A stretch of DNA of 64,000 nt from Dictyophora rubrovolvata. Its lineage: Eukaryota; Basidiomycota; Agaricomycetes; Phallales; Phallaceae. Below are positions 9,942 to 16,554 of the stretch, piece by piece; within the stretch, counting starts at the first letter, position 1, and every line of letters starts with the position of its first letter. The stretch lies in the NCBI GenBank assembly GCA_029959195.1, contig CP114121.1, positions 1,674,001 through 1,738,000 on the forward strand, in the 5' to 3' direction. The translations under genes were made by a program, and so were the position numbers. The notes under the pieces are model-generated. The model worked only from the letters and a program-made list of their open reading frames with translations, did no database searches and was not told the DNA's origin.

Positions 9942-12900
9942 ATGATCTCAAAACTTCAACGACTCAGTATATTACATGTCCTTTTCACGATCAATGGTGT
10001 CTTTGCACAACTCCCCCTAATTGACTTCGACCGTATGGGAACGGTAGGCATCGCTGGCGCGTTTTCCGGATTGGGTTTCGCGAATAGTTCAGGTTTTTCG
10101 TTCGATCCGGCGGCATCGACGCTTTTGTCACGCTCAACTGACGGTCCTCTAATTCCTGTCGCGTCTACTAATACAGGGGGTAGAATAGTAGCTGGTTGCG
10201 TCCTCAATGATAATTTTTATTTTGCCGGTTCCTTCTCTTCCATAGACAAAACTTCCGTTAGCAACGTGGCCTCCTACAACCCGACCACCAACTCGTTCTC
10301 AAACTTGAATGGCGGACTGGATCATGAAGTCGACGCTCTACACTGTGATCAATCCACTGGTCAAGTCTGGGCTGGGGGTGCTTTTCATGCACCCGTATCC
10401 ATGTCAAGCAATACGGCCTTCAAAGGCGGTGTCGCCATTTTTGATACCAAAAAGAACCAATGGTTGCCAGCGCCATTCGGCGGTTTGAACGGTGCTGCTG
10501 CTATGGTACGGTCAATTGTACCAAGTTCTTCAGGCTCAAGTCTTTACTTCGGTGGATCCTTTTTTACCGAGTTCAAATCCAACACAACCGCTTTCAATGG
10601 CACGAATAATCCTAATGTCCCTTTTTCCATCGGTGCAACACCATTTTCATCTTCATTAGTCCCGATACCCTTGAATCCTCCAACTACTCAGATTACCGCC
10701 TCTCCTAGCACATCCCAGCCAGGTTTTTCCAATATATCCAATACTCTTTGTCCTTCCGGACCTGATGGTCCCGGGAATAGCTGGTTAGCTCGCGACAATT
10801 CAAATGCTCTGATCACGGTGCAAACCTTTCAGTTTTCAACAGCAAGCGGTATCCGACTCGGTAATACGTTTGTTCAGGGTCGAAGTACTACAGCGTTCAG
10901 GTAGGTGCTTTTCATCCCCCTTCAGAAAAATGGGGATAGAGCCTTAGCACTTTCTATAGCGCCGTTACGCTTCCAAACAACCAACCCCTGACGTTCAACT
11001 TTGTTGATCCTGTCACCTTACGAAACTTATCATGTTCCTCGTCTTGCCCTTTAGGCACCAACTCTTCTATTCTTTATCAGGACTTTCTTTTTGATGGTGT
11101 TTCGATAGAAATAACTGGGATTCAACTTACCCTGACCGAGTGGATTGGGTCAGGGCCTGGCCTTCATATCTTCCAGCTGCTGTCCAGTGGTGCATCCGCT
11201 TCCGCTGTAGAAAGCACCAATAAACCTTCATGCTTTGCGCCCGTTGACTCCACTGTTCAGCTCAACGGTCAGTGGAACCAAACAGATGTCCCTACCACCA
11301 TAGCCGCGACCATACAACCTGTACTAGTATCCAATGTAGCTGTTGGAACATCTTCCATGAAATCTCCCAGTATCACTTGGATGCCCTATGTTTCTGCTCC
11401 TGGAACCTACGATATCAATCTCCTTATTCCTGGTTGTTTAGATTTGCAAGATTGCCCAAGTCGTACCTCCGTGAAAGTAACTGTATTCCCTGGAGTGGGG
11501 TTACAACCAGCGACTACCGTTGTCCGTCAAGACGTGCAGACTGATACGACAGCCGGAATTTATCGAGGTCCGGTTATTCCCTCCCTACCCAACCTTACAA
11601 TCAGCATCCAGATGGAATTAGCGGACTCACCTGTCGGTACTGGTCAAAATGGCCAATTTCAATTAATTGCCGACCGGGTGCAATTAGTCCTCGTCTCAGT
11701 AAATTTCACCGCCTCTGCTGGATCTGGTTCAGGATTCTCTCTTACGGACTCGGGAAATGGATTTGGTTTTTTCGAATGGATTCTCAGCAATACGAACACC
11801 GTTGATGCTACCGGGCTACTTCCTAACAACACGGAGACTCCTGCTGACGCGCTTGGTCTTCAGCTTTTTTCTGCGTTAGGAGGCGGTTTATCAGAAAACA
11901 GTAGTTCTATTAACGTAGTTGCAACAGACTCGACTGGAGTAATTTTTATTGGTGGTGATTTCCAAACATCATCCGGAATGGCCAACATTGCCACATTTCA
12001 AGATAATACATTATCTTCATTGTCAAACAGTGGCTTAAATGGTGGAGTTACTTCTCTTGTCGCATCCGGTGGGTTGTTATATGTCGGTGGTTCATTTACC
12101 GATACGGCGTCATCCTCTGGAAATGGTGCTATTCAAGGCGTAGTCAGTTATGATATCCAAAACAACAAGTGGATGCCTCTTCTCGCTGGCGTTAATGGCG
12201 TCGTTAACTCCCTCAATCTGGTCAATCAAAGGCTGGACGTGGCAGGTAATTTCACCTTCATTCCAGCAGCGCCAAAATCTACGGACGGTTTCAACGCAGG
12301 AGGTATAGCGAGTTGGGATATTCAAAACGGTCGTTGGATCAATCCTGGTAGTTTTTTGGAAGGCGCTATGACACTTGTTTCGAATGGCTCTGTGTCAAGG
12401 ACCGAGTACACTGCAGGGTCTGTTTCCGCGTCGAGCGAGTTTGGTTCAGATGGTCTTGTCATGGTTTCAAACGCAAACCAGAAGAACTCTCAGCCCACGT
12501 TGACGCCATTAGCTGTCCTTTTAGCTTCTGATTTACAGGCATCTGAATCTGAATCTATTTTGCAACGCCGAGACCTTCATTTATGGCGCCGCCAGACACC
12601 GCCAGCCCCGACTTTGAACATTACATCTCCAGCTGTTCTCGCAGGTGCGTTTTGGACAAACTCCACCTCCTCAGCAGAGACTACGATTATCGGTGGAACC
12701 TTCACGACTTCAATCGAAGCTTCTGCGTTGAGCAATCTTGCGTTTTATGATGCCAGTCATACCGCTATTGCCGGAACCCGTGGTGGCCAGATAAACGGCA
12801 CCGTTCAAGCCTTACAAGTGATCGATAACACGCTGTACGTTGGTGGACAGTTCACGTTATCGTCCGGTGGTGCAAATGGTTTTGCTATATATGATCTTGC

Positions 12901-14469
12901 GCAGCAACAATGGGATACGTCTTTCCAAGCCTTAGAAGGTATTTATACTTCATCATAGCGTGACGCGCCTTGACATTCTAACTTAGGCTCAATCGTCGAT
13001 GTTGCATCCATTACAACACCACCATTTGAGTCGAACGTGGTGATAGTGGCTGGAACATTTTCTTCTGCTGGTAGTCTGCCTTGTCAGAGTGTTTGCCAAT
13101 TTGATACATCTGCAAAGCAATGGAATCAACTTGGTTCAGGCATTGATGGACAAGTGACCACGGTTACTTATACGGTGTGTACTTCGTGTCCGGTGATTTT
13201 TTTTCCTAGCTCATTCTCATGTTAATAATAGAGTAATCCAAACCTCTTGGTCGCTGCAGGCTCTATTCAACTTCCGAATGGAACGCCGGCTAATGTAGCA
13301 GCCTTTAGTTTCACAAACAACACTTGGTCCTCTGTTGGAGATGCTTCTCAGATACCTGGTCCTGTCACAGCTTTTGCGGTTGACAATGGCAATGCAAGCA
13401 GTATATTTGCTGCAGGAATGTTAGTAATTTTACGTCGATTCAATCTTTTACATGCGTATTGAGCTAATTTAGATCATCTCAAAACGCGGAACCATTCCTG
13501 GTGTTTTGGAACGGGAAGAAGTGGAATAATTTGGGTATGGGTTTTTGGATCTATTAACATATACATTATCTTATTGGTGCTCTCAGACCCCTCGTTCGCC
13601 AACGGAACTACGTTTTCGCAGCTCGCTGTAGTGCCTTTGCAAGACACACACTCTGCTAACGGGATTATTGAAACGGATCGGGTTCTGCTTATCTCGGGCT
13701 CTCTCAATATGAGCAATTTCGGAAATGCTTCTTCGGTCGTATTCGATGGTGAAAACTATATCCCTTACTTTGTTTCCTCATCGTTCGTTGGTGGAGGTAG
13801 CTTCATCTCGCAATTGTTCCATTCGTTGAGTAATTTCAGCTTCGCACAAAAACGTGAGTGAACAAACTCAATTTTCAATGTGAACTTTTTTGGCTGACCA
13901 TACTCATTAGATTTCTTATCTGTCGGACTGGTTATCTTAATCTCGATCGGTATCTCGACGGCGATTGTTTTCTTATTGCTGCTGATTGGTATTATCTGGA
14001 CGTTGTTCTCTCGCCACGAACCGGAGACTTTCGCAAGTAAATATGACCCGGGCGATTACGACGATGACAGTTTGCATAGACCGTCCTCTTTGTTAGAACA
14101 TATCAATGCTGCTACGCGCAGTGCCATAATTGGGGCAGGCTTGGAGAGCCCTCACAGCGGCGAGGGTAAAAGTGAAGAACAGCCGAGATCACCAATTACA
14201 GATGAAAATGAGCAGGCGGCCTTCCCTCGAGGTGTTGGAGACGTTTCTCGGCCGGCTCATGTGCGATACTCATTTGATGGCGAGGGTGAGGGTGAATTGC
14301 GAGTCTCTTCAGGAAATCAGGTCGTTGTTCTGGATGACCGAGATGCTGAGTGAGTGTTAAGCAAGAATATTTCGTTTCTAAATGTTCATACTGTGTTATC
14401 AGATGGTGGTATGCGCGTGATCCAAACACAGGTCGTGAAGGGGTTATACCCGCCTCGTATTTATACTGA
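9942..14469 (+). CDS. RAX2: Rax2-type cortical polarity marker with a C-terminal SH3 domain
   Basis: Eight exons: 9942-10900, 10960-12938, 12987-13174, 13232-13419, 13473-13534, 13587-13853, 13911-14349, 14403-14469, giving 1382 aa. A signal peptide (LHVLFTINGVFAQLP) opens a very long extracellular region with repeated kelch/propeller-like units (FYFAGSFSS, LYVGGSFTD, LYVGGQFTL) and many N-glycosylation sites, typical of Rax2. One transmembrane helix lies at about residues 1216-1240 (VGLVILISIGISTAIVFLLL). The cytoplasmic tail ends in an SH3 domain: VRYSFDGEGEGEL, VVVLDDRDAEWWYAR, then TGREGVIPASYLY. In yeast Rax2 marks old division sites with Rax1 and Bud8/9. The last exon is needed to complete the SH3; reading through the intron would stop at 14353 and lose the WWYAR core. 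The SH3 is the unusual part. Confidence 0.92.
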
Positions 14470-14942
14470 GTCTTTTATCTCTCTTTCTTTCTCTTTTGTT
14501 TTTGTCTTTCCCAAGACCTTGCGTGGTTGCTGCTTGTTTCTTTGATGCGATTTTATATTCCACCATCATGATACTGTTCTCGTTTTGTTTTCTGTTTAGG
14601 CAAGACACTAATGAAAACATTTTGTTACTTTGCGCTGCTATATGAAAGGAGCTGAGTGTTCTTTTGTACTGTGAGATTTAAACATTTTTAGCGAGCACAA
14701 TGGTGCCTGATTTGACAGCGTGAGATTCAAACTGATATGGATTCGGATTGGATTTTAAGCATGTAATCGCACCAAATTTCCCTGATGTATACTTCGAAAT
14801 GGATATCATCATTTTATGCTCGTCATATGGTCACAACGCTTCTTGGGGCAGGTGACGCTGACCGTAATAGAAAGTTATATGTACGCGATGTATCCGTGAC
14901 GTCAAGTAGTAGTTCGAGTCATTTAGCTTCACATCATCCACC
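14470..14942. other. Intergenic region between RAX2 and the aminotransferase gene
   Basis: About 470 bases without a gene. It starts with a pyrimidine-rich stretch probably belonging to the RAX2 3' UTR and ends in the aminotransferase promoter, which contains a TGACGTCA palindrome listed separately. Nothing else was recognised. Confidence 0.5.
14897..14904. promoter_or_regulatory. TGACGTCA palindrome upstream of the aminotransferase
   Basis: A perfect CRE/ATF octamer lies 38 bases before the aminotransferase ATG. ATF/CREB-type or CPC1/Gcn4-like bZIP factors recognise TGACGTCA or the related TGACTCA. A link to amino-acid or stress control is plausible but inferred from position only. Confidence 0.4.
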
Positions 14943-16554
14943 ATGACATCTTCCATCTTACAATTCGGTCAACGGCACATCGCTAAAGGTGTCACTCGGG
15001 CTGCGAATGCAATTATTGTGGACGGTAAAGGTTCGCGAGTGCTGCTTCAGGATGGGAGAACGATGCTCGACTTCACATGTGGGATTGGAGTCACCAGCCT
15101 TGGTTCGTTTTGTTTGTTTTTCGAAATCTTTTCGCTATAACTCTATCTTTTAGGTCATTGTCATCCGAGAGTAAGCAAGGCTGCAGCTGAGCAATGTTCT
15201 AAAGTCGTTCATGTCCAGGTAAGAAATCGCATCGGCTCATACTAACTCATTCTTCACGTTATATTTATGGGAACACAGTGCAGTATTGCTTTTCACGACC
15301 CATATCTTAAATTGATTGAAAAACTGCTACCCGTCATGCCCAGCCCTTCTCTGGACACTTTCTTTTTTTGGAACTCGGGTTCTGAAGCTGTAGAGGCAGC
15401 CATCAAATTAGCTCGAACCGCTACGGGAAGGCAGAACATCATATGTATGCAAGGTTGGTCACTCTCCCTTTAATAATACATAATGCTCTTGTAACTTAGG
15501 ACCATAAGGTGGCTATCATGGTCGAACTTATGGCGCTATGGCTGTCACGAGGAGCAAGACGGTTTACAGTCAAGGGGTCCATCCGTTAGTGGTAGGTAAC
15601 ATCGGCTACATAGTGATCGTACCGATTGGTCAATGAATTTATCTATAGCCCGGTGTCTTTACAATACCCTTTCCGTACTGGCATCAATTCTCCTCTACGC
15701 CCTCAGTATCTGAAGAAGAACTGACTCGCAGAGCGCTTTGGCAACTGGACCTGGTTCTGTCCCAGCAGACACGACCTGAAGATACCGCAGCTATAATTAT
15801 TGAGCCTATTCTAGGAGAAGGCGGATATGTACCAGCACCTACAGCGTTCTTACAAGGGTTACGAAAAGTTTGCGACAAACATGGTATCTTGCTTATTATA
15901 GACGAGGTGCAAAGCGGTTTCGGTAGAGCAGGAAAATACTTTGCCATCGAACACAGCGGTGTCCGACCCGATATTATGGTGATGGCGAAAGGGATAGCAA
16001 ACGGTTTTCCTTTGAGTGGAATTGTCAGCAAGAAAGAATTAATGGACAAACAAGGTCCCGGATCGATTGGTGGTACATATGCTGGCAATGCTGTCGCATG
16101 CGCGGCTGGAGTAGCATGTGCAGACGTAATGCGAGACGAAAATATCCTTACTAACGTGGACGCAAGGTTCGTATTAAAAAAGGTATAGTGTGTGTGTAAC
16201 ACCCAACATTGTTTTAGATCCACGGAACTTTTCAAAGCCCTGAACGAGTTAAAGACAACCCCAGAAACAGGAAAGTACATTGCGGATGTTCGCGGAAAGG
16301 GACTAATGGTTGCACTCGAATTCACTTCACCCGGAAAGTCTGAAAACGATCCTGGTGCCAATGCAGGAGACATTCCGGGATTGGCAAGCAAGGTTGCGGC
16401 AATATGTCAGCAGAAGGGATTACTCATCCTAACAACATCTGTTTTCGAAACTATCCGATTTATTCCGGCCCTGAATATTACCAAAGAGGAGTTGACTGAA
16501 GGGGTAAATATTTTCAAACAAGCCGTGCTGGAAGCTGTTGAAAAGAAACAGTGA
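14943..16554 (+). CDS. Class III PLP aminotransferase (4-aminobutyrate/acetylornithine type)
   Basis: Six exons: 14943-15102, 15154-15218, 15279-15453, 15509-15591, 15649-16166, 16218-16554, giving 445 aa. Class III landmarks are in order: GHCHPRV, FWNSGSEAVEAAIKLAR, GGYHGRTYGAMAVT, then EPILGEGGY, LLIIDEVQSGFGRAGKYFA with the PLP-contacting Asp, and MAKGIANGFPLS with the Schiff-base Lys. These enzymes move an omega-amino group to 2-oxoglutarate. Among subfamilies the sequence looks closest to the GabT/PuuE type, but beta-alanine, ornithine or other omega-amino acids cannot be excluded from sequence alone. No clear mitochondrial presequence is seen (MTSSILQFGQRHIAKG), so it may be cytosolic. 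Confidence 0.88.

Follow-up and report, generated by a model that had tools for sequence, protein, structure and literature searches.

A Rax2 orthologue of Dictyophora rubrovolvata with a C-terminal SH3 domain close in sequence to the third SH3 domain of Sla1

According to the first-pass annotation of this locus, the yeast Rax2 protein has a short tail only, and it is not known to carry an SH3 domain. Membrane proteins that carry an SH3 domain are already known, among them Fus1 and Sho1. Fus1 of yeast and Talaromyces sits in the plasma membrane and combines a membrane region with an SH3 domain, the latter C-terminal in yeast; no Rax2 ectodomain is mentioned for it (PMC10315666), whereas the protein considered here has Rax2 domains. 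Sho1 of yeast is likewise membrane-anchored with a cytoplasmic SH3 domain, but it was reported to have four membrane helices (PMC4411306) against one in Rax2.

Yeast sla1 mutants were reported to form Rax2 patches poorly, and the Rax2 patch signal was lowered in 11 yeast endocytosis mutants (PMC3764181); the patch defect is therefore not special to Sla1. For the third SH3 domain of Sla1 (SH3-3), a Kd of 16 uM was reported with the proline-rich region of Las17, and Las17 is inhibited by the first and second SH3 domains of yeast Sla1 but not by the third (PMC12081870).

Here we describe the Rax2 gene found in a window of 64,000 nucleotides (the whole stretch of DNA analysed, C5:1674001-1738000) of the D. 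rubrovolvata genome, an assembly of 11 contigs and 28.2 Mb. Its product agrees with the Rax2 family in the three Pfam domains, the one C-terminal membrane helix and the signal-like start, and differs from it in the C-terminal SH3 domain. No description of an SH3 domain on any Rax2 appeared among the matches listed in the literature searched, subscription papers lying largely outside that search, and the combination may well be common among fungi and already catalogued in domain databases. What is new here is the type to which the SH3 domain belongs, namely its resemblance to Sla1 SH3-3.

Gene model and domain architecture of Rax2

The Rax2 gene occupies positions 9942 to 14469 of the window on the forward strand and consists of eight coding exons (9942-10900, 10960-12938, 12987-13174, 13232-13419, 13473-13534, 13587-13853, 13911-14349 and 14403-14469), which together encode 1382 amino acids. 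The spliced frame is kept throughout and closes with a single terminal stop; the seven introns are all of the GT-AG type, measure 48-59 bases each and leave no internal stop codon. For the third intron, one of the four acceptors tested preserved the reading frame. At the 3' end, the exon 7 (13911-14349), intron (14350-14402) and exon 8 (to 14469) boundaries proposed by the first-pass annotation proved right.

Searches of the 11-contig genome found no second Rax2, and no relative turned up when the viral_contigs set was scanned with the translations of exons 2 and 7. Scanning genome_contigs, a set that includes no relatives of this genome, with exon 2 gave 14 pattern-matching stretches, among which a single one from a bacterial assembly, 26% identical and not evidently a fungal Rax2, resembled the exon 2 region; this stretch (L036:10001-10999, from a metagenome assembly assigned to Oscillochloris) may be a bacterial propeller or a contaminant. 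Downstream of Rax2 on the same strand, at 14942-16554, lie frames resembling what we take to be an intron-split pyridoxal-phosphate aminotransferase.

The spliced protein matched the Pfam family Rax2 (PF12768) with an E value of 2.4e-73 and 247.1 bits (cut-off 28.8), and Rax2_2 and Rax2_3 (listed as PF20842 and PF20843) with 80 and 57.9 bits (cut-offs 27 and 27). Rax2_2 spans residues 248-388 and Rax2_3 residues 402-564, and the best of five stretches matching the Rax2 propeller covers residues 962-1206; a PDB search with this propeller returned no match at E 0.01. Residues 1-1216 contain 23 N-glycosylation motifs (N-x-S/T). By hydropathy alone there are just two hydrophobic stretches, a signal-like one at residues 9-27 (peak 1.62) and one within residues 1211-1251, which holds the single membrane helix (13913-14008, residues 1216-1247; Kyte-Doolittle peak of 2.96 within residues 1214-1251). 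The helix is followed by a tail of 135 residues, inferred from the expected topology to be cytoplasmic, which begins with a linker of 82 residues (14009-14254; 16 acidic, 8 basic, one PxxP) and ends with the SH3 domain (14255-14466, residues 1330-1382), split by the last intron and recognized by Pfam SH3_1 and by PDB matches. The gene encodes a Rax2 orthologue with a signal-peptide-like start, a long ectodomain, beta-propeller domains, one helix and an SH3 tail. Spliced model, Pfam, PDB and hydropathy thus all agree with the earlier proposal of a Rax2 gene whose membrane helix is followed by a complete SH3 domain.

An SH3_1 profile search, which that annotation had called for, gave a match at residues 1333-1378 (14264-14454) with E 5e-10 and 39.3 bits, far above chance and above the family cut-off of 22.9, covering profile positions 3-48 of 48. 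SH3_9 (30.1 bits, cut-off 30) and SH3_2 (23.4 bits, cut-off 21.8) passed narrowly, by 0.1 and 1.6 bits. Compared with PDB chains, the 54-residue domain matched 191 distinct SH3 sequences at E <= 0.001, the best at 1e-9. In the groove, W1362 corresponds to the Trp of Sla1 SH3-3 in the alignment, the Pro of the PASY motif to its Pro, and Y1380 to its aromatic residue. We regard it as almost certain that the SH3 domain is real and translated.

Relationship of the SH3 domain to Sla1 SH3-3

The D. rubrovolvata genome contains at least 31 SH3 matches, a lower bound given that the scans score the best candidates only. When the genome was searched with the 54-residue domain, ten matches were obtained at E <= 1. 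Rax2 itself was recovered as two pieces and was followed directly by the third SH3 of the genome's own Sla1 (1.5e-8, 49% identity, 39.6 bits), the next-ranked of the matches listed reaching 22.8 bits. This own Sla1 SH3-3 (L006, C10:689386-689529) lies in a gene with two further SH3 domains, PH_SLA1 and SHD1, and the gene is identified as Sla1 because PH_SLA1 and SHD1 are present. The 30 SH3 matches having a locus, including the second half of the Rax2 SH3 (L035), were compared, and 16 SH3s chosen from the set used for the tree below entered a pairwise table. In this table the own and yeast Sla1 SH3-3 domains scored highest against the Rax2 SH3 (117 and 111), ahead of Sorbs1 (93) and L010 (82).

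The PDB comparison depended on whether chains or domains were ranked. By whole chain, the best match was a Sorbs1 chain with two SH3 domains (1e-9), and Grb2 chains (1.2e-8 to 1.4e-8) stood level with the chains of yeast Sla1 (1z9z, 1.1e-8; 9hdb, 1.4e-8; 2jt4, 1.9e-8), the last of which is Sla1 SH3-3 (PMC3770644). By single domain, Sla1 gave 1.2e-8, whereas the best-ranked Sorbs1 chain reached 4.7e-5 with the better of its two domains and Grb2 0.013 with its better one. Of the own-genome matches listed, Sla1 SH3-3 comes nearest to the Rax2 SH3, and in the PDB it ranks with the nearest; in both domains the groove Trp and the last aromatic residue are 18 residues apart.

A tree of 28 rows was computed, including 22 of the at least 31 genome SH3 matches; L025, L026, L027, L029, L030, L031, L033 and L034 were left out as incomplete or odd, and L035 as the second half of the Rax2 domain. 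The Rax2 SH3, the own and yeast Sla1 SH3-3, L011 and L020 grouped at 89/84, under the 95/80 mark, in an alignment of 55 columns that left 14 of 25 inner branches open. The Rax2 SH3 branch is long (1.02, against 0.26 for the own and 0.49 for the yeast Sla1 SH3-3). By sequence closeness, the Rax2 SH3 is of the Sla1 third-SH3 type; it differs from Sla1 SH3-3 in sitting on a membrane protein, in being interrupted by an intron, and in having Tyr1380 where the yeast domain has Phe409.

Three frames elsewhere in the genome (L019, C4:2040940; L023, C1:1814346; L024, C1:1821358) combine a membrane-like helix with a C-terminal SH3 domain of a different clade, and L023 and L024, 7 kb apart, may be duplicates. 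We take these three to be Fus1-like. A Fus1 identity of the present protein does not fit its Rax2 domains; its SH3 falls outside the clade of the three frames.

Predicted ligands and role of the SH3 domain

The first-pass annotation had proposed that the SH3 domain recruits proline-rich partners. The aligned groove Trp, Pro and aromatic residue are indeed present, while the binding itself stands as a prediction; PxxP binding by the Rax2 SH3 is one that we consider quite likely. Concerning the ligands, the domain would be expected to bind proline-rich partners of the Sla1 kind, such as WASP/Las17 or other endocytic-actin proteins, and in this way to connect the landmark patch with actin assembly nearby and with endocytic recycling. 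These processes help to build the Rax2 patch in yeast, where Sla1 acts in trans; here the link would be made in cis, within Rax2. A coupling of the landmark to Sla1-type proline-rich ligands is favoured because the domain is closest to Sla1 SH3-3 and because yeast sla1 mutants form poor Rax2 patches. That this is a Rax2 orthologue with a Sla1-SH3-3-type SH3 whose predicted role is to couple the landmark to actin and endocytosis through proline-rich ligands is a reading to which we give nearly even weight, and the prediction that the SH3 is linked to the endocytic-actin machinery specifically is put forward tentatively, as the best supported of the possible roles. At 49% identity, the sequence does not reveal the specificity of an SH3. 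The effect of a lone SH3-3-like domain may also be weak, because the third SH3 of yeast Sla1 does not inhibit Las17. Among possible partners, the own genome contains a WH1 (WASP-type) match, close downstream of which lies a 353-residue frame with 26% Pro and 45 overlapping PxxP.

Alternatively, the SH3 may bind polarity or signalling proteins (the Cdc42 module, a formin, PAK kinases) in place of endocytic-actin proteins and make Rax2 a scaffold like Fus1. With its C-terminal SH3, Fus1 was reported to serve at the plasma membrane as a scaffold on which signalling and polarity proteins assemble (PMC10315666), and the own genome has at least two more single-pass frames ending in an SH3 (L019 and L023), possibly a third (L024). 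However, the SH3 domains of these frames form a clade of their own (99/98), apart from that of Rax2, which is nearest to Sla1 SH3-3. We consider this alternative possible but unlikely. Binding within the tail is a further alternative, in which the SH3 would be autoinhibitory or self-associating through a proline motif, either of the same tail or of an adjacent Rax2 molecule; the linker does offer one PxxP, but a lone minimal motif within an acidic linker is weak, and we judge such binding improbable.

Ubiquitin is another ligand known for this kind of domain. Phe409 of yeast Sla1 SH3-3 is needed for ubiquitin binding, and its change to Tyr abolishes binding, while CD2AP and CIN85 still bind through their third SH3 after the same change; moreover, a Tyr-bearing SH3, read by us as Nck SH3-3, was reported to bind ubiquitin (PMC3770644). 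The own Sla1 SH3-3 likewise has Tyr at the Phe409 position, in a PASY motif. Ubiquitin binding by the Rax2 SH3 is set low because Tyr1380 replaces Phe409, and it seems unlikely.

The first-pass annotation had further suggested that recruitment by the SH3 would bypass Rax1/Bud-type adaptors. Rax2 would be expected to localise to growth poles or old division sites in a Rax1-dependent manner. To look for Rax1, the own genome was searched with the RGS family, which gave two matches, in a scan that would miss a divergent or intron-split Rax1. Judging from their letters, we take both to be other RGS proteins, one FlbA-like and one of the PX-RGS type.

Returning to the predicted coupling to Sla1-type ligands, the SH3 tail suggests that Rax2 could hold on to the machinery of actin and endocytosis without an intermediary. 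The readout from landmark to actin is usually explained, from work in yeast, via chains of adaptors. With a Sla1-like SH3 on the landmark, one link of such a chain could be tested directly, since it would involve a domain of 54 residues and few candidate ligands, and the finding could bear on the poor Rax2 patches of yeast sla1 mutants. As to its origin, the cytoplasmic end of Rax2 may have acquired a copy of Sla1 SH3-3 by an ancient graft, lineage-wide, so that the landmark, which in yeast depends on Sla1 in trans, would itself dock WASP-type actin nucleators. The long branch of the Rax2 SH3 would fit an old event, provided that rates are alike. This graft is a speculative scenario, which we think rather unlikely to hold in full; if true, an inherited mark on the cell surface would directly seed actin and endocytosis where growth occurs next.

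The last intron and the reading of the domain

The last intron (14350-14402, forward strand, GTGAGTGT...TTATCAG) has 53 bases and lies in phase 2 in the Glu codon directly before the Trp-Trp pair, and the last exon (14403-14469) supplies the second half of the SH3 and the TGA stop. If the intron were a switch, spliced transcripts would give Rax2 with its SH3 and retained ones a truncated tail, and the link would be regulated. The intron bisects the SH3, and its retention would stop translation at the next codon (TGA, 14351-14353) and truncate the domain. In a simple pattern search, the branch-point pattern YTRAY was present in five of the seven introns and had no match in the last one. Its absence is a weak point of the predicted last intron. 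However, the first intron is also without YTRAY, and in length and end signals the last intron resembles the remaining six.

The exon ends of seven SH3 matches besides Rax2 were compared for intron position by reading the letters. Introns just before Trp-Trp also occur in the genes of L028, L032 and L039: that of the first SH3 of Sla1 (L028, C10:688089-688178) matches the Rax2 intron in both codon, namely Glu before Trp-Trp, and phase, and those of L032 and L039 are in phase 1. Sla1 SH3-3, though closest to the Rax2 SH3 in sequence, has no intron at that site, and we draw no conclusion on the origin of the domain from these positions. The last intron needs no special role, because other SH3 genes of the genome have an intron there, and a regulated switch appears very improbable to us. 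That a neighbouring SH3 gene was falsely fused to Rax2 is hardly credible: the SH3 depends on one predicted splice, but a single exon of 146 open codons runs without a stop from the helix into the first SH3 half, and because the last exon encodes only the second half of the SH3, no independent gene exists there that could have been fused.

The domain is easily overlooked without splicing, even if it is common in related fungi. Exon 7 read unspliced matched no Pfam family at E <= 0.01, and plain ORF calling misses the SH3 for this reason, as the first-pass annotation had anticipated. In the whole-genome profile scan, the unspliced stretch of 29 codons at 14368-14454, which runs from the last part of the intron through most of exon 8, still scored 18.8 bits against SH3_1 (E 0.04), below the family cut-off.
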